From IMG/VR virus record IMGVR_UViG_3300045303_000079, positions 1-20,110 of that record: a DNA stretch of 20,110 nt, one strand, 5' to 3'. The stretch is from a virus. Shown one piece after another: positions 12,628 through 20,110 of this stretch (position 1 is its first letter; each line of letters opens with the position of its first letter). The notes below the pieces were generated by a model, which saw only the letters and a list, made by a program, of their open reading frames with translations, did no database searches and was not told the DNA's origin. The position numbers and the translations under genes are program-made.

Positions 12628-13601
12628 GCAAGACGGTTTCGGCGGGCTTCAAAACGATGCTCAACACGTCGCAGGTGCTGCTGGGCTGCGATCTCTATAC
12701 CGTGACGCTTTCCGCCGGCGGCGTGTACCGCACGACCAATGCCCCGATCGACATCGTCGTCGCCGGCAACACGTACCTGCACGAGGTCGCCGGCGTTATC
12801 CCGGGCATGGAGCGCGGGCCGATCAAGCTGGCCATCGGCCTGCAGGTGGAAAGCATCGACGTCACGGTGAAGTTCGACGCGTCGACGTTGTGGCCGACGA
12901 CCAGCACGCCTGGCGCGTTCGCCAACGCCGGTGGCTTCGATAACGCGCGCATCCAGATCGACAAGCTGCTCACGCCGGATTTCGCGGATACCTCGCGCGG
13001 CGTCGTCAATCTGTTCACCGGCGTCGTGAGCGAAATCGCCACGACCGACTCGCGCGCTACGCTTCACTGTTCTAGCGATCTGGTCTATCTGGATGGCCAG
13101 TTTCCGCGGAACTACTTCCTACCGTCCTGCAACAATGCGCTGTTCGATTCCAACTGTGGATTGAACAAGGCCACGTACGCCGTCAACGGAACGGCCACCG
13201 CCGGCAACACCGTCAAGGTGCTGACGGCCAGCGCATTGACGCAGGCCACCGACTACTTCGCCCTGGGCTACGTGATCTTCAACACCGGCGCGAATGCCGG
13301 GCTCGTGCGCTCGGTGAAGTCGTCGGTGAGCGGCGCCCTGACGCTGCTCTATCCGTTGCCGGTCGCGTGCGCCAACGGCGACACGTTCACGGCCTACCCG
13401 GGCTGCGACAAGCTCGAGGCCACGTGCCTGGCCAAGTTCAACAATCTTGGCCACCACCGCGGCTTCCCGTTCGTGCCCACGCAGGAACAGATCGAGCTCG
13501 GATCGGCAGGCTCGGCACCTTCGGATAGTTCGCTCGGCAGCGGCCTGGGCGGCACCGGCCGGGGCACCGGTGGCCAGCAGGGTTCGTTCAAGCAGAAATG
13601 A
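12624..13601 (+). CDS. DUF2163 / BR0599-type tail tip protein
   Basis: Tail tip (hub-region) protein, 325 residues from ATG 12624, which overlaps the previous stop by ATGA; a longer in-frame ATG at 12360 lies deep in the preceding gene and is rejected. The N-terminus MSKTVSAGFKTML and a beta-rich body with YTVTLSAGGVYRTTNAPIDI and GVIPGMERGPIKLAIGLQVE fit DUF2163. The C-terminus fits the BR0599 domain: PGCDKLEATCLAKFNNLGHH followed by RGFPFVP, including the conserved cysteines 261 and 268, with two more in FLPSCNNALFDSNCGL. In gene transfer agents such a protein (gp13) forms part of the hub and has been linked to iron-sulfur binding; metal binding here is only possible. It ends with a Gly/Ser-rich tail. 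Confidence 0.87.
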   Translation: MSKTVSAGFKTMLNTSQVLLGCDLYTVTLSAGGVYRTTNAPIDIVVAGNTYLHEVAGVIPGMERGPIKLAIGLQVESIDVTVKFDASTLWPTTSTPGAFANAGGFDNARIQIDKLLTPDFADTSRGVVNLFTGVVSEIATTDSRATLHCSSDLVYLDGQFPRNYFLPSCNNALFDSNCGLNKATYAVNGTATAGNTVKVLTASALTQATDYFALGYVIFNTGANAGLVRSVKSSVSGALTLLYPLPVACANGDTFTAYPGCDKLEATCLAKFNNLGHHRGFPFVPTQEQIELGSAGSAPSDSSLGSGLGGTGRGTGGQQGSFKQK

Positions 13602-14023
13602 CGCCAGAAGAGCGCCGCATCGTCGAGGCCGCGCAGGCCTGGCTCGGCACGCCCTACCACCACTGCGGCGACGTGCTCGGCTTCGGCGTCGACTGCGGAA
13701 TGCTCCTGGTCCGCGTCTTTTGCGATCTGGGTCTCGTGCCGATGCTGGATCCGCGCCCCTACGCGCCGGATTGGCATTTGCATCGCAGCGAAGAGCGATA
13801 CCTGGGCTGGGTGGAGCAGTACGCGCGCAAGGTCGACGAACCGCGACCAGGTGATATCCCGCTGTTTCAATTCGGCCGCTGCATTTCGCATGGCGGCATC
13901 GTGGAATCGATCGAGCCCGAGCCAATCATGATCCACGCCAACAGCCGCGCGGCGTGCGTTGAGCGGTCGGAAGTCCGCATGTTCGAAGACCGCTTCATGG
14001 GGTATTGGAGAATCATTTCGTGA
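13598..14023 (+). CDS. NlpC/P60-family tail peptidase (lambda gpK-like)
   Basis: Probable cysteine peptidase of the tail tip that cuts peptide stems of peptidoglycan during DNA entry or acts in tip assembly. It has 141 residues and contains only the NlpC/P60 domain; the JAB/Mov34 domain of lambda gpK is absent. Catalytic elements: Cys33 in FGVDCGML, His98 in RCISHGGIV and a third polar residue, probably His113 in IMIHANS. WLGTPYHHCGD and RPGDIPLF are further family hallmarks. The start ATG 13598 overlaps the DUF2163 stop (ATGA), and its own stop overlaps the GTG of the tip protein, so the four tip genes are coupled. The order DUF2460-DUF2163-NlpC-tip is the gene transfer agent order. Confidence 0.93.
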   Translation: MTPEERRIVEAAQAWLGTPYHHCGDVLGFGVDCGMLLVRVFCDLGLVPMLDPRPYAPDWHLHRSEERYLGWVEQYARKVDEPRPGDIPLFQFGRCISHGGIVESIEPEPIMIHANSRAACVERSEVRMFEDRFMGYWRIIS

Positions 14024-17000
14024 GCATTTTTGGCGGCAAGAAGCCAGCGGCACAAAAGGACACGCACGCGCTCGGCCTCGACTTCCAATCGGCTCAATAC
14101 GGCAACTGCATCCCGGTTGTTTTCGGCCAGAACAAGCTGGCCGGCAACGTGATCGACTACATGGATTTCCTGCCGGTCGCGCACAAGCAGAAGGCTCAGG
14201 GCGGCAAGGGCGGGCACCCGCCGTCGACCACGAGCTGGACGTATCAGGCGAGCTTCGTGATCGGACTGTGCGAAGGCCTGGGCACCGTCGTCACCGTCTA
14301 TAACGGCACCGGCGAAAACACGCTCGCCGGCGCCGGCGGAATCGGGTTCAACGGATCCGCGACGCAAGGCGTCTGGTCGCACCTCACCGGCACGCACGCG
14401 CTCAACTATTCGGCGACGTCGATCGCGTGTTTCCAGGACATGCAGCTTGGCGACACCGCCTCGCTGCCCAACCTCAACTTCGAAATCGCCGGCCGCAACC
14501 AGCTGGGCGGCGGCATCGTCGACGCCAACGCCGCCGACATCCTGACCGCCATCTGCACCGATACCCAGATCGGCGTGAAGTTCACCGCGCTCGGCGACCT
14601 GACCGCGTTCCGCAATTACAGCACCGCGGCCGGCCTCTTCTTCTCTCCCGTCTACGACACGCAGGCGCCGGCGTCGCAGGCGATCGAATCCCTCCTGAAA
14701 TATGCCAACTCCGCCGGCTATTTCAGCGAAGGCGTGTTGAAGGTCGTTCCCTACGGCGACTCGGCGATCACTGCCAACGGCGCGACCTATACGCCGAACC
14801 TCACGGTGGTCGCGGATCTCGGCGCGAATGACTTCATGACGAACGGGCCGGGCCCGAAGGTTACGTCGAAGCGGAAGTCGCCGGCGGACGCGCTCAACAT
14901 CGTGCACGTCGAATATAAGGACCGGTCGGCGAAATACCGCACCATTCCCGTGACGGCATCGATCGACCAGGACGTTGTGGCCACCGGCAGCCGCACCGAT
15001 CAGTCCGAGTCGGTGGACATGATCACCTTGGCGTCGACGGCGCGCCTGGTCGCGCAGAACCTGCTGCAGCGCATGTATTACATCCGGAACACTTATTCGT
15101 TCCGACTGGCCTGGCGCTGGTGCTGGCTCGAGCCGACGGACATCGTGTCGCTCACCGATGTTGGCCAGGGGCTCAACCTCACGCCCGTCCGCATCACCAG
15201 CATTTCCGAAGACGAACACGGGCTGCTTAGCGTCGAAGCGGAAGAACTGCCCGATGGCATTGGCCACGGCGGCACCTACGCGACGCCGGCGGTCATTCCC
15301 ACGAACACGGATCCGGACGTGGATCCGGGCCCGGTCACGGCGCCGTATTTCTTCCGCGCGCCAGGCTTTCTGGTCTCGGCCGGCGCGCCCGAGATCTGGG
15401 TGGCCGTCAACGGCGCCAATCCCATGTGGGGCGGCTGCGACGTCTATCTCTCGCAGAACGGCTCGAGCTACACCTACCTGTCGACGTTCGCGCGGAAGTC
15501 GATCTACGGCTCGCTGACGAACACGCTGCCCAACGTCGCGGATCCGGACACCACCAGCGCCCCGAACGTCTCCCTGTATGCCGGCGGCGTGTTGCTCGGC
15601 GGTCTCGCGGCCGACGCCGACGAGTTCGTGACGATGGCGATGGTCGACACCGAGATCATTTCCTACCAGGCGGCGACGCTGGCGGCGGGGCCGTCCTACA
15701 CGCTCGGCACGCGGATCCGCCGCGGCGGCTACGGCACCACCATCGCTTCGCACAGCGCCGGCGCGCCCTTCGTTCGACTGGACGAGAACATCCTCCGGAT
15801 CCCGATGGATGCGTCCCAAGTCGGCAGCGTCATCTACGTCAAGTTCCTGAGCTTCAATGCCTTCGGCCGCGGCGATCGCACGCTGGCCATGGAAACCGCC
15901 TACCCGTACACCGTCGGCAGCAACATCGAATTCCCGGACGTGCCGGCGACGCCGGGCAGCTTCGCAGTCACCGGTGTGGCCGACGGCATCAATCTGACCT
16001 GGAATAACGTCAACCCGGCCGCCGTGGCGTGCACCAGCATCGAGCGCTGCGCGACGTCGGGCGGCACGTACACGGTGATCGCCCAGGTTGGGCCGACGGA
16101 CACCATGTACCACGACGCCATGACCACGGGCGCCACCTGGTTCTACAAGATCCGCAGCCGTGGCCACCAGGTCTCCGGCGGCTGGTCGGCCTACACCGCC
16201 TTCGCAAGCGGCACGGCCTACAACACGACCACCAGCGTCGCGGCTGCCCTGGCCGCCGCCAACGCCGCCCAGGCCGACGCCACGGCCGCGCTGGCCCAGC
16301 TGACCGATATCGCGAGCGATTCGCTCCTGACGCCTGGCGAGAAGCCGATCGTCATCAAGGACCGGGACGCGCTTACGGCCGAACAGGCCGGCATCGATGC
16401 CCAGGCCACGGCGTTCTCGATCACCACCGAGAAGACGACCTACGACACGGCCGTCACCGCGTTGACCACGTACCTGGCCACGCTCACGAGCCCGGTGCTG
16501 TGGTCCAATTTGAGCGGCAACACCACGATCGTCGGGACGACGTTTCGGCAGAAATTCCTGGACGTCTACGCGGCGCGCACGGCGCTGCTGAATAAGATCT
16601 ACGCCGCAGCCAAGTTGCTCGCCGATACCGCCCAGGCGGCGGCCAACGCCGCGCAGGCCGACGCCACCAGCGCCCTGGCGACGCTGACCGATATCGCGAG
16701 CGATTCGCTCCTGACGCCTGGCGAGAAGCCGATCGTCATCAAGGACCGCGACGCGATCACGGCCGAGCAGGCCGGCATCGATGCCCAGGCGACGACCTAC
16801 AGCGTCACCACCGAGAAGACCACCTACGACACGGCCGTCACGGCGCTGACCACGTACCTGGCCACGCTCACGAGCCCGGTGCTGTGGAGCAACCTGACCG
16901 CAAACACGACGATCGTCGGCACCACGTTCCGCCAGAAGTTCCTCGATGTTTATGCATCGCGCCAAGTGCTGCTGCAGAAGATCGCCGACGTCGTCACCTA

Positions 17001-20000
17001 CGGCAACACCGCCGGCAACGGCACGAACCTGCTGTGGGATGAATACTCCCGCTTCCTGACGGCCACGCTGCCGTCGCCGTTGTCGCTCAACCTGACGACG
17101 GCCGCGATGGTCACGGACACGGCGGCCACCGGCGGCAAGTCCCTGCAGCTGACGACGGCTGGCGTGACGAATGCCGAGTATTGCGCGTTCACCGTTGGTG
17201 TAACGACGGATTACAACCTGCCACTCGCGCCGGGTAAATACATCGTCTCCGCTTACCTCCGCGCGAGCGTATCGGGCCATCAGATCCGTTTCGTGCTCAA
17301 GGGCGATGATGCGGTCGGCCATTTCGGCGCGAACTTCGCGATCACGAACACCACCGGCCTGACCCGCTATTCGCAGGTGATCGACACCAGTTCGTCCACC
17401 GGGCCGAATGCGTTCCTGTATATCAACACGAATATGAGCGTGACCGCTGGCCGCGTGGTGACGGTCGACCGCATCATGATCGAGCCGGTGATCGGTGGCC
17501 TGGCCACGCCGAGCCCGTACGTCCAGGGCAACCCGGCACGCCGGGCGATCAACGCCCAAGCAGCTGCGGACGCGGCACAGGTCGACGCGACGTCGGCACT
17601 GACGACACTGACCAACATCGCCAGCGACAACCTGCTGACGCAAGGCGAAAAGCCGACAGTCATCAAGGACCGTGACGCGATCACGGCCGAGCAATCCGGC
17701 ATCGATGCCCAGGCCACCGGCTACGGCATCACCACCGAGAAGACGACTTACGACACGGCCGTGACGGCGCTGACGACGTACCTGGCCACACTCACCACGC
17801 CGGTGCTCTGGTCGACGCTCAGCGGCGACACGACGATCGTCGGCACCACGTTCCGGCAGAAGTTCCTGGACGTCTATGCCGCGCGCCAGACCTTGCTCCA
17901 GAAAATCGCGGACACGGTGACGCTTGGCAATACCGGCGGCAACGGCATCAACATGATGTGGGACGAACAGTCGCGGTTCACGGCTGTGCCGCAATATTCG
18001 AACTACAACGACGGCGCCTCGACGTTCGCCTACGATGCGGCCACGACGATCATCGGCGACGGTGGCTCGTTCCAAGTCACGAGCGGTGGCGCGGTAATCA
18101 ACGGGTTTTTCCAACTCAACGGAAGCTCGGGCGACTACAACATCCCGTGCCCGGGCGGCATCAAATACATCCTGTCGTTCTACGCGCGCTGCTCGACCGC
18201 CGGCCATATCATCCGGCCGCAGTTCACGCGCGACGATGCGGTGTCAAACAACAGCTTGGCCGATTTCACCCTGACCGCGGCGAACACGTGGTACCGGGTC
18301 TCATGCGTGGTCGACCTGTCGGCACTCCCGAACGTGCGGAAGATCTGCGTCGGCGTGTTCTACAACCGCTCCAACGTCGCCGGTCGGGTCTCGAAATACT
18401 CCGGCTTTATGCTGGAGCCGATCATTGGCCAGCTCGTGACGCCGTCGCCCTGGGTGCTCGGCACCGCCGGCCGCCTGGCGCTGACTGGCATCACGAACGC
18501 AGCAACCGCGCAGGCCGCGGCAGTTGCCGCCCAAGCGGACGCCACGAGCGCCCTGGCCACGCTGACCGATATCGCGAGCGATTCGCTGCTGACGCCCGGC
18601 GAGAAGCCGGTGGTGATCAAAGACCGGGACGCGATCACGGCTGAACAGTCCGGCATCGATTCTGCGGCCGACTTGTACCAGGTAGTGACCGAGAAGAGCA
18701 CCTACGACACGGCCGTCACGGCGCTGACGACGTACCTCGCCACCCTCACCACGCCGGTGCTGTGGTCGACGCTCAGCGGCAACACGACGATCGTCGGCAC
18801 CACGTTCCGGCAGAAGTTCACCGACGTCTATGCCGCGCGCCAGGCCTTGCTCAACAAGATCGCCAGCAACGCGCAGGGGCTGATCTACGCGCCGCGCTCC
18901 GGATCCGAGCAGCTGGTGAACGCCGACTTCGAATTCGGCACCGATAGCCCGCCGGTCGGCTGGATGCTGAATTCGGCGACCGTGCTCTACGACACGACTA
19001 CGCAATACGCCGGCACGCGCTCGATCAAGGTGACGTCGACGGCCGCGAATGGCGGCATCCTGTCCGATCAGAAATACGGCATCAGCGTCGGCGGCAGGAT
19101 CCGCGTCAGTGGCCAGGCCAAGCGCGTGAGCGGCACCGGCAGCGCCTCGATCGCCGTGTCGTTCTTCGACAATACCGGCGCCGTCACCAGCACGGTGAAT
19201 GCGGGCACGACAACGTCGTCTTCCTGGACGGCGCTGACCGGCGTATGCCAGGCGCCGGCGAATACGTCGTACTACCAGATCAACCTGCGTTGCACGGTCA
19301 GCGGCGATGTGTGCGAGTTCGACAACATCCTGCTCGGCCGGCAGCGCGACCTGGACAACGATATCGAGGACGGCGCCACGATGGGCCGGGTGCTACTCAC
19401 CGACCTCTCGAGCAACCGTGTCGGGCTGCGCGTGGCCGGCTCCGGCCACCGCATCGGCGACCAGCGCAACCTGCCGCAGATCACGGTCGGCAACCTGCAA
19501 TCCAAAGTTCCCTCGGTGATCACATACACGTCGACCGCGACCACGGCGACGATCAGCGTGGCCGCATTCACCATGACCGCCGGCAGCGTAACGGTGAGCT
19601 ACAACGCGACCAGCGTCGGCACCACCGGCAGCGGCACCGTGCTCTATTACCTGTATCTCGATGACCCTGGCTACGCCGGCGGCGCGCAGACGCTGGTGGC
19701 CACGACCACGGCGCTCACCTGCTACCAGAACGACGGCCGGGTGCTGATCGGATCCGTGTCTGTGATCTACACGGCCGGCGGTTCGGGTGGCGGTGGTGGC
19801 GGCGGTCACGAGTGCGTCGCCGACGACATGTATCTCCGTTGGACTTTGCGCGCCGGTGCGGTTGCCCTTGGCCAGATGATCGACTGCATCAACCTGCCGA
19901 AGAACGGCGTGATCTATGCCCACGCGATCGAGGCCATCAAACACGCGGCCGAGGCCTGCGTCCGCATCACGACCGAGGGCGGCGCCGTCCTGGACTGCAG

Positions 20001-20110
20001 CGAATCCACGCCGTTCGACCTCATCGGCGGCGGCAGTGCGTTCGCGCCCGACATGAACGGCCATCGCGTCGTTACCGATCGCGGCATCGAGACGGTCATT
20101 TCGGTGGAGC
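14020..20110 (+). CDS. Large tail tip / host-specificity protein (gpJ-like), C-terminus cut by window
   Basis: Central tail tip and probable receptor-binding protein; 2030 codons from GTG 14020 (GTGA overlap with the peptidase stop) without a stop before the window edge. Residues 1-~440 match the phage tail/GTA hub type: HALGLDFQSAQYGNCIPVVF, SWTYQASFVIGLCEGLGTV, ESLLKYANSAGYFSEGVLKV and WRWCWLEPTDIVSLTD. Beta-rich domains follow to ~637, then a fibronectin III-like domain (~638-732, GINLTWNNV ... WFYKIRSRG). Four 113-residue helical repeats start at 748, 876, 1184 and 1502; repeats 2 and 3 are each followed by a related jelly-roll-like domain, and a third such domain follows repeat 4 (~1615-1780). 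A further beta domain ends in a Gly run (1920-1929), and residues 1932-2030 look like the start of a Hint domain. The protein is much longer than lambda gpJ. Confidence 0.93.
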   Translation, partial: MSIFGGKKPAAQKDTHALGLDFQSAQYGNCIPVVFGQNKLAGNVIDYMDFLPVAHKQKAQGGKGGHPPSTTSWTYQASFVIGLCEGLGTVVTVYNGTGENTLAGAGGIGFNGSATQGVWSHLTGTHALNYSATSIACFQDMQLGDTASLPNLNFEIAGRNQLGGGIVDANAADILTAICTDTQIGVKFTALGDLTAFRNYSTAAGLFFSPVYDTQAPASQAIESLLKYANSAGYFSEGVLKVVPYGDSAITANGATYTPNLTVVADLGANDFMTNGPGPKVTSKRKSPADALNIVHVEYKDRSAKYRTIPVTASIDQDVVATGSRTDQSESVDMITLASTARLVAQNLLQRMYYIRNTYSFRLAWRWCWLEPTDIVSLTDVGQGLNLTPVRITSISEDEHGLLSVEAEELPDGIGHGGTYATPAVIPTNTDPDVDPGPVTAPYFFRAPGFLVSAGAPEIWVAVNGANPMWGGCDVYLSQNGSSYTYLSTFARKSIYGSLTNTLPNVADPDTTSAPNVSLYAGGVLLGGLAADADEFVTMAMVDTEIISYQAATLAAGPSYTLGTRIRRGGYGTTIASHSAGAPFVRLDENILRIPMDASQVGSVIYVKFLSFNAFGRGDRTLAMETAYPYTVGSNIEFPDVPATPGSFAVTGVADGINLTWNNVNPAAVACTSIERCATSGGTYTVIAQVGPTDTMYHDAMTTGATWFYKIRSRGHQVSGGWSAYTAFASGTAYNTTTSVAAALAAANAAQADATAALAQLTDIASDSLLTPGEKPIVIKDRDALTAEQAGIDAQATAFSITTEKTTYDTAVTALTTYLATLTSPVLWSNLSGNTTIVGTTFRQKFLDVYAARTALLNKIYAAAKLLADTAQAAANAAQADATSALATLTDIASDSLLTPGEKPIVIKDRDAITAEQAGIDAQATTYSVTTEKTTYDTAVTALTTYLATLTSPVLWSNLTANTTIVGTTFRQKFLDVYASRQVLLQKIADVVTYGNTAGNGTNLLWDEYSRFLTATLPSPLSLNLTTAAMVTDTAATGGKSLQLTTAGVTNAEYCAFTVGVTTDYNLPLAPGKYIVSAYLRASVSGHQIRFVLKGDDAVGHFGANFAITNTTGLTRYSQVIDTSSSTGPNAFLYINTNMSVTAGRVVTVDRIMIEPVIGGLATPSPYVQGNPARRAINAQAAADAAQVDATSALTTLTNIASDNLLTQGEKPTVIKDRDAITAEQSGIDAQATGYGITTEKTTYDTAVTALTTYLATLTTPVLWSTLSGDTTIVGTTFRQKFLDVYAARQTLLQKIADTVTLGNTGGNGINMMWDEQSRFTAVPQYSNYNDGASTFAYDAATTIIGDGGSFQVTSGGAVINGFFQLNGSSGDYNIPCPGGIKYILSFYARCSTAGHIIRPQFTRDDAVSNNSLADFTLTAANTWYRVSCVVDLSALPNVRKICVGVFYNRSNVAGRVSKYSGFMLEPIIGQLVTPSPWVLGTAGRLALTGITNAATAQAAAVAAQADATSALATLTDIASDSLLTPGEKPVVIKDRDAITAEQSGIDSAADLYQVVTEKSTYDTAVTALTTYLATLTTPVLWSTLSGNTTIVGTTFRQKFTDVYAARQALLNKIASNAQGLIYAPRSGSEQLVNADFEFGTDSPPVGWMLNSATVLYDTTTQYAGTRSIKVTSTAANGGILSDQKYGISVGGRIRVSGQAKRVSGTGSASIAVSFFDNTGAVTSTVNAGTTTSSSWTALTGVCQAPANTSYYQINLRCTVSGDVCEFDNILLGRQRDLDNDIEDGATMGRVLLTDLSSNRVGLRVAGSGHRIGDQRNLPQITVGNLQSKVPSVITYTSTATTATISVAAFTMTAGSVTVSYNATSVGTTGSGTVLYYLYLDDPGYAGGAQTLVATTTALTCYQNDGRVLIGSVSVIYTAGGSGGGGGGGHECVADDMYLRWTLRAGAVALGQMIDCINLPKNGVIYAHAIEAIKHAAEACVRITTEGGAVLDCSESTPFDLIGGGSAFAPDMNGHRVVTDRGIETVISVE
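15931..16215 (+). other. Fibronectin type III-like domain of the tip protein
   Basis: Codons ~638-732. PDVPATPGSFAVTGVADGI, then LTWNNVNPAAVACTSIERC, TYTVIAQV and WFYKIRSRGHQVSGGWSAY give the usual strand pattern with Trp in strand B and Tyr in strand F. Lambda gpJ also carries such domains in this position. Confidence 0.75.
16261..16599 (+). repeat. 113-codon helical repeat, copy 1 (tip protein)
   Basis: First of four in-frame copies of exactly 339 bases. It starts NAAQADATAALAQLTDIASD and continues SLLTPGEKPIVIKDRDALTA, EQAGIDAQATAFSITTEK, TYDTAVTALTTYLATLTSPV, NTTIVGTTFRQKFLDVYAAR and LLNKI. Bases 16300-16364 are identical to 16684-16748 in copy 2. The LTPxEKP...TEKxxYDxAxxALxxYL pattern is a known module in phage tail proteins. 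Confidence 0.93.
16645..16983 (+). repeat. 113-codon helical repeat, copy 2 (tip protein)
   Basis: Same length as copy 1 and 384 bases downstream of it, with only a 15-codon Ala-rich linker between them. Residues SLLTPGEKPIVIKDRDAITA, YDTAVTALTTYLATLTSPVL and TTFRQKFLDVYASR match copy 1 almost fully; long stretches are identical at the DNA level. Confidence 0.93.
16984..17568 (+). other. Jelly-roll-like (carbohydrate-binding type) domain A of the tip protein
   Basis: Codons ~989-1183, between repeats 2 and 3. It opens GNGTNLLWDEYSRF, has ATGGKSLQLTTAG, PLAPGKYIVSAYLRASVSGH and TRYSQVIDTSSS, and closes VDRIMIEPVIGGLATPSPYV. This strand order resembles CBM4/9-like domains. It is related to domain B (17908-18522), which has the same opening and closing motifs. 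Confidence 0.65.
17569..17907 (+). repeat. 113-codon helical repeat, copy 3 (tip protein)
   Basis: Exactly 339 bases, the most divergent of the four: TNIASDNLLTQGEKPTVIKD and QSGIDAQATGYGITTEK differ from copies 1 and 2, but YDTAVTALTTYLATLTTPVL and TTFRQKFLDVYAARQ are kept. No insertion or deletion relative to the others. Confidence 0.92.
17908..18522 (+). other. Jelly-roll-like (carbohydrate-binding type) domain B of the tip protein
   Basis: Codons ~1297-1501, between repeats 3 and 4. Opening GNGINMMWDEQSRF, middle GGSFQVTSGGAVINGFFQL, CPGGIKYILSFYARCSTAGH and WYRVSCVVDLS, closing YSGFMLEPIIGQLVTPSPWV. It is a diverged duplicate of domain A. Confidence 0.65.
18523..18861 (+). repeat. 113-codon helical repeat, copy 4 (tip protein)
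   Basis: Exactly 339 bases. Returns to the copy 1/2 type in its first part (LTDIASDSLLTPGEKPVVIK), has a variable segment SAADLYQVVTEKS, and ends TTFRQKFTDVYAARQALLNK. It shares long near-identical DNA stretches with copies 1 and 2 in the first third. Confidence 0.93.
18862..19370 (+). other. Third jelly-roll-like domain of the tip protein
   Basis: Codons ~1615-1784. SEQLVNADFEFGTDSPPVGW followed by GTRSIKVTSTAANGG, GGRIRVSGQAKRVSG, SASIAVSFFDNTG and VCEFDNILLGRQ give the pattern of a CBM4/9-type carbohydrate-binding module (LVNxxFE...GW opening, FDNI closing). It is closer to classic CBMs than domains A and B. Confidence 0.65.
19813..20110 (+). other. Probable Hint (intein/hedgehog-like) domain, cut by the window end
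   Basis: Codons 1932-2030 follow a glycine run (1920-1929). The sequence begins with Cys1932 in HECVADDMYL, has RAGAVALGQMIDCINLP resembling intein block A (Cys start, then G-x-x-I/V-D), and CVRITTEGGAVLDCSESTPF (1980-1999) in the position of block B, although the usual His is replaced by TPF. Then GGGSAFAPDM and HRVVTDRGIETVISVE resemble the next Hint strands. I recall similar C-terminal domains in large phage tail proteins. The catalytic C-terminal His-Asn would lie outside the window. Confidence 0.6.

Follow-up and report, generated by a model that had tools for sequence, protein, structure and literature searches.

The last gene in the analysed stretch of viral DNA (20110 nucleotides, hereafter the window) codes for a tail-tip protein whose C-terminal part had been predicted to be a Hint-like autoprocessing domain with an altered active site. 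Which kind of Hint domain, if any, is carried at the end of a phage tail tip, and does it still have chemistry to perform? The window is a complete IMG/VR virus record, exactly 20110 bp long, with no sequence past 20110, and its end truncates the domain. The full C-terminus is found in a relative with 76% identity (locus L003), and 25 further copies of the domain were available for comparison with that of the window.

Tail-tip gene and its neighbourhood

The gene set of the window comprises genes for terminase, portal, head protease, major head protein, adaptor, tape measure and baseplate/hub, the last gene being that of the tail tip. Its reading frame is unbroken up to the contig end, and its start overlaps the stop codon of the upstream gene in the sequence GTGA.

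13598-14023, plus strand: neighbouring NlpC/P60-like tail protein, whose stop codon overlaps the tip gene start
14020-20110, plus strand: tail-tip (host-specificity-type) gene with GTG start, open at the contig end; Phage-tail_3 and Rcc01698_C hub domains, GA_3-like repeats and C-terminal Hint domain

Both hub domains lie in the N-terminal part of the protein, and it is this part that matches annotated tip attachment and host specificity proteins in tblastn searches. Further on within 14020-19785, four similar GA_3-like stretches of about 80-100 amino acids, with the consensus SDxLLTxGEKPxVIKDRD, alternate with beta modules. Fewer such stretches are present in L003, suggesting that the repeats may have expanded in the tip protein of the window.

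C-terminal domain and its completion by a relative

The following features delimit the domain in the window.

19786-19806, plus strand: run of seven glycines directly ahead of the domain; Gly stands just before Cys1 in 20 of the 24 other copies having this position
19813-20110, plus strand: Hint (hedgehog/intein-fold) domain, cut by the contig end about 35 residues early; assigned by alignment to relatives, AlphaFold2 and Foldseek
19813-19815, plus strand: Cys1932, first residue (Cys1) of the Hint domain; every one of the 25 sequences having the position shows Cys
19849-19887, plus strand: AGxVxxG segment RAGAVALGQMIDC, N-terminal motif after block A, from the family alignment
19957-20016, plus strand: block B, CVRITTEGGAVLDCSESTPF, from the family alignment with the gp41-1 and PhoCDC21-1 inteins
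19999-20001, plus strand: Ser1994 at the position of block B Thr (B7); invariant in the family
20008-20010, plus strand: Thr1997 at the position of block B His (B10); no copy has His there, all having Thr or Ala

The glycine run and the cysteine that opens a new domain are located as the original prediction had described them, with His-Glu between the run and Cys1932. Two segments had been proposed to occupy the places of intein blocks A and B; both were recovered, RAGAVALGQMIDC and TTEGGAVLDCSESTPF, the latter ending at 20016. In L003 the same layout is complete, Glu again standing just before Cys1: its own Gly run is followed by C...SESTPF...IGMRAVCRISVGGVSYAAGKNALHRIYSHN-TIKP-stop. The protein ends ISVGGVSYAAG...RIYSHN-TIKP-stop, with four residues after His-Asn. 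A terminal His-Asn, proposed earlier as a check on the Hint assignment, is thus present in relatives with few residues behind it, and from L003 we infer the same pair for the window, past the contig end.

Fold of the domain

The fold was predicted by AlphaFold2 from the L003 domain together with 12 other sequences (window and other loci), giving a nearly all-beta model with pLDDT 89.7 and pTM 0.86. The best Foldseek match in PDB is 2lwy, a bacterial intein-like (BIL) domain of C. thermocellum (E 1.4e-6, TM 0.78/0.79), and among the 50 matches listed all are inteins, BIL or Hedgehog domains. Sequence profiles point in the same direction. A 13-row family profile compared with PDB sequences gave five matches, all of them inteins, and a 16-row profile had gp41-1 as its top match (E 7e-6), followed by PhoCDC21-1 (E 5e-5). 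Structure prediction, Foldseek and profile comparison hence agree on the all-beta horseshoe of the Hint superfamily, bearing out the earlier fold assignment. The C-terminal domain of the tip protein is almost certainly a Hint fold related to type A BIL domains.

A Pfam scan of 16 members gave nothing above noise, NCBIfam gave no match, and scans of Pfam, NCBIfam and PHROG for a named Hint family yielded chance matches only. The missing curated Hint or intein model is a gap in the libraries and does not disprove the fold. The nearest models in BFVD belong to proteins of 448 and 285 amino acids, lengths matching LUCX_306 and XacN1 ORF231; they are followed by other unnamed phage proteins, and terminase inteins score lower.

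Conserved and lost active-site residues

Conservation was evaluated in 26 sequences, with invariance counted among the copies having each column. Median pairwise identity across the family is 29%. Eight columns are invariant: Cys1, Ser B7, G89, V112, G125, one Trp (a column in which the L003/window pair has no Trp), terminal His and terminal Asn. Half of them (Cys1, B7, His and Asn) are active-site positions, and G89, V112 and G125 are structural ones. Judged from the alignment, invariance of these four active-site residues at such low identity exceeds chance.

Two other active-site residues of inteins have been lost. In the profile alignment the family motif S-x-x-T-P lies over S-E-E-H or T-P-T-H-P of inteins, which puts Ser in the place of B7 and Thr in that of the catalytic His B10. 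Position B10 is occupied by Thr in 21 relatives and by Ala in three bacterial copies, with no His in any; the window copy has Thr as well. The original prediction, that TPF replaces the block B His, was therefore right about the absent histidine, which is lacking throughout the family, and slightly out of register: block B reads S-E-S-T, where Ser1994 replaces Thr B7, Thr1997 replaces the His, and Pro-Phe merely come next. The suspicion of altered chemistry drawn from this substitution holds in essence. The column of the block F Asp (F4) contains mostly R, L, H or P and never Cys.

His-Asn closes the domain in all 25 complete copies. The residue following Asn (+1) is V, A, L, I, T, N, R, S, Q or K, mostly one of the first four, and only two of the 25 copies have a nucleophile there (T or S).

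Lysine tail after His-Asn

In all phage copies 4-10 residues follow the Asn. A Lys stands in this tail in every one of the 25 members, phage and bacterial alike, its distance from Asn varying; among six-residue C-termini of other ORFs at the same loci, about 25% have one. When the members are reduced to seven clusters at 40% identity, the enrichment has p of about 6e-5 to 3e-4. A mere Shine-Dalgarno or ribosome-site artefact can be ruled out, because the Lys is retained at three loci (L006, L009 and L015) where a terminator-like hairpin, not a gene, comes next, and because both Lys codons are used.

Distribution and carrier proteins

Among named phages, the domain occurs in Stenotrophomonas phage DLP_6 (two copies), in Xanthomonas phages LucasX, XacN1 and PhiXhv-12/15/16 and in Erwinia phage Ep032; many IMG/VR contigs, some of them jumbo-size, have it too. 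The copies are carried by at least six unrelated types of phage tail or virion proteins and by a few Burkholderiaceae surface-type proteins. The carrier types include Phage-tail_3/J proteins, DUF4815+PKD giants (phrog_358), phrog_11610, phrog_15511, fibre-repeat proteins and families without name. In all complete phage copies the domain forms the extreme C-terminus, usually after poly-Gly. The domain is best explained as a transferable module, attached to the far end of phage tail proteins that are not related to one another.

Six of the seven named carriers infect Xanthomonas or Stenotrophomonas and belong to several unrelated phage types, a raw count uncorrected for collection make-up. With the same reservation as to the count, this concentration on phages of Xanthomonadaceae fits a host-related role, chemical or structural, and hints at module exchange among phages with a common host family. 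The Hint protein of Ep032 is nearly identical to that of PhiXhv.

Among bacterial genome contigs, a first scan found no copy and a second one found a single Roseateles locus (L021). Genomes of the Roseateles family supplied two further copies (L030 and L031, Burkholderiaceae), and wider searches of genomes of the Roseateles order and class gave none; bacterial copies are therefore rare. A plasmid search also found no copies. The three bacterial copies lie at or near the end of large, surface- or secreted-looking proteins and have HHN and Ala at B10. Sequence comparison leaves bacteria as a possible source of the phage module. One candidate locus (L004) was dropped as a chance match to a tape measure gene on the opposite strand.

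Comparison with known Hint domains

In inteins, Thr B7, His B10 and Asp F4 affect the N-terminal acyl shift, and His-Asn is the C-terminal pair; type A BIL domains have His-Asn without a +1 nucleophile (PMC4031507). The tip family shares with the type A BIL 2lwy, its best fold match, Cys1 and the terminal His-Asn without a +1 nucleophile. It differs in lacking the block B His in every copy, in its obligatory Lys tail, poly-Gly linker and phage-tail carriers; identity to 2lwy is only 18%.

Class 1 mini-inteins such as gp41-1 and Ssp DnaB have the same fold, block order, Cys1 (Cys in all tip-family copies having the position) and His-Asn, and the profile match to them spans blocks B to F. In contrast to them, the tip family has no F4 Asp, its block B reads Ser-x-x-Thr (Ser-x-x-Ala in bacterial copies) in place of Thr-x-x-His, no +1 nucleophile is required, and the domain is terminal, with no extein to restore. 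For the loss of B10 His there is a precedent: the Tko CDC21-1 intein splices without it, using a compensating Lys (PMC4031507). PhoCDC21-1 is also the second-best match of the family profile. Unlike in CDC21-1 inteins, however, the loss in the tip family is family-wide, and its conserved Lys follows the Asn instead of lying within the domain.

Class 3 inteins, which lack Cys1 and have a block F Cys and a WCT triplet, do not correspond to the family either, as Cys1 is present and the F4 column is never Cys. The Hedgehog Hog domain shares the fold (1at0 and 6tyy are among the Foldseek matches). Hog domains possess the catalytic B10 His and a sterol-recognition region and are not known to end in His-Asn. 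A Hog assignment was rejected, given the missing block B His and the end of nearly all copies 4-10 residues after Asn. On this comparison of sequence motifs the domain is a BIL-like variant, neither a canonical splicing intein nor a known Hint family, because B10 His is never present, the +1 residue is mostly not a nucleophile and every copy has a Lys tail.

In the literature found, Hint domains of phages are reported as inteins residing in enzymes, among them terminases, helicases and reductases. Our searches, which covered non-subscription literature, turned up no paper describing a Hint domain on a phage tail protein. While the fold is known, the family, its tail-tip placement, His-less active site and Lys tail are undescribed in the libraries and literature searched.

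Proposed chemistry and alternatives

We favour, with moderate confidence, the view that the family is a BIL-like Hint module of tail tips, a slow or triggered self-processing domain rather than a splicing intein; that the domain is still chemically active is predicted with similar, moderate confidence. Self-processing is likely, by a reaction which may run as follows. Asn cyclisation, driven by the penultimate His and Asn, would sever the short Lys tail or leave it exposed. Cys1 would form a (thio)ester with the preceding Gly slowly or conditionally only, because B10 His and F4 Asp are missing. Cleavage could follow, or an amine close by could take over the poly-Gly end; the tail Lys would be the obvious candidate, as helper or acceptor. 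Such processing might mature, lock or arm the receptor-facing tip. Continuing chemistry is favoured by the retention of Cys1, Ser B7 and His-Asn, and efficient N-terminal activation is disfavoured by the loss of B10 His and F4 Asp. With the Ssp DnaB intein, B10 His becomes essential when Gly stands at -1, and bulky -1 residues can compensate for its loss (PMC6333167); as the -1 residue is mostly Gly here, and Gly cannot replace B10 His in this way, efficient thioester formation is argued against.

The main rival to self-processing is a degenerate Hint domain that serves as a structural or receptor-binding cap, a compact knob in which Cys1, His and Asn take part in folding or metal binding and nothing is cleaved. 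We regard it as a possible but less probable explanation. Family-wide loss of both B10 His and F4 Asp would suit it, as would the location on tips, typically sites of receptor binding, and the Xanthomonas/Stenotrophomonas hosts of most named carriers despite several unrelated types. However, most of the domain has diverged to 18-30% identity, yet Cys1, Ser B7, His and Asn never vary; a dead domain would be expected to lose the terminal Asn in at least some lineages, and the Lys tail past the Asn is retained too. That same tail also counts against self-processing, since it would be strange for a tail that is merely discarded to have an obligatory Lys. A further reading is an acyl-transfer device, where Cys1 would activate the C-terminal Gly of poly-Gly and an isopeptide bond would form with the tail Lys, or an amine of the host surface, as acceptor. 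We consider this quite unlikely; if true, neighbouring tip subunits would be stapled together or the virion covalently attached to the cell.

An assembly chaperone is another unlikely explanation: the domain would trimerise the tip and then cleave itself off, as endosialidase-type intramolecular chaperones of phage spikes do, with a Hint fold instead. Its extreme C-terminal place, after a flexible Gly linker and on many tail proteins of unrelated kinds, fits such a chaperone, and N-terminal cleavage is possible for Hint domains, but there is no protease-type catalytic dyad, the N-terminal activators B10 and F4 are missing, and the domain also occurs on Burkholderiaceae proteins other than phage fibres. 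Far less probable still is a true intein, a selfish splicing element inserted near the end of tail genes. Hint fold, Cys1, His-Asn and, in L003, Thr at +1 are reminiscent of one, yet most copies have V, A, L or I at +1, the "C-extein" would have just 4-10 residues that vary between copies, there is neither a homing endonuclease nor an uninterrupted host sequence to restore, and the proteins ending in the domain are unrelated.

Under the preferred reading of slow or triggered self-processing, an altered yet conserved active site with a Lys tail at receptor-facing ends suggests that phages may perform self-processing or acyl-transfer chemistry at the tip. It opens a direct question, whether tail tips are cut, succinimide-ended or crosslinked in the virion. 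For protein ligation, the family would also offer Hint domains that naturally lack the His.

Additional observations

One carrier, P0010 (L023:2181-5369), has two Hint-like stretches in tandem from about residue 770. The first reads CFTG...TLDHP...VAHN-K and is followed by GGGGGG and the family domain, CPAVEM...YTHNVQPIVK. With its canonical Thr-x-x-His, the first stretch is a candidate Hint domain by motif alone; it was not accepted as a confirmed one, having no relatives, no intein match and a single-sequence fold of pLDDT 41.

In DLP_6 (KU682439.2), an unannotated ORF of 1340 amino acids (L007:2894-5490 and L005:1-1655) reads through the annotated 229-bp terminal repeats in frame and ends in a Hint domain of the family. 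The genome paper describes the region as having no ORFs and the repeats as unusual for T4-like phages (PMC5349666). Assembly of a circularly permuted genome may have produced these terminal repeats as an artefact.
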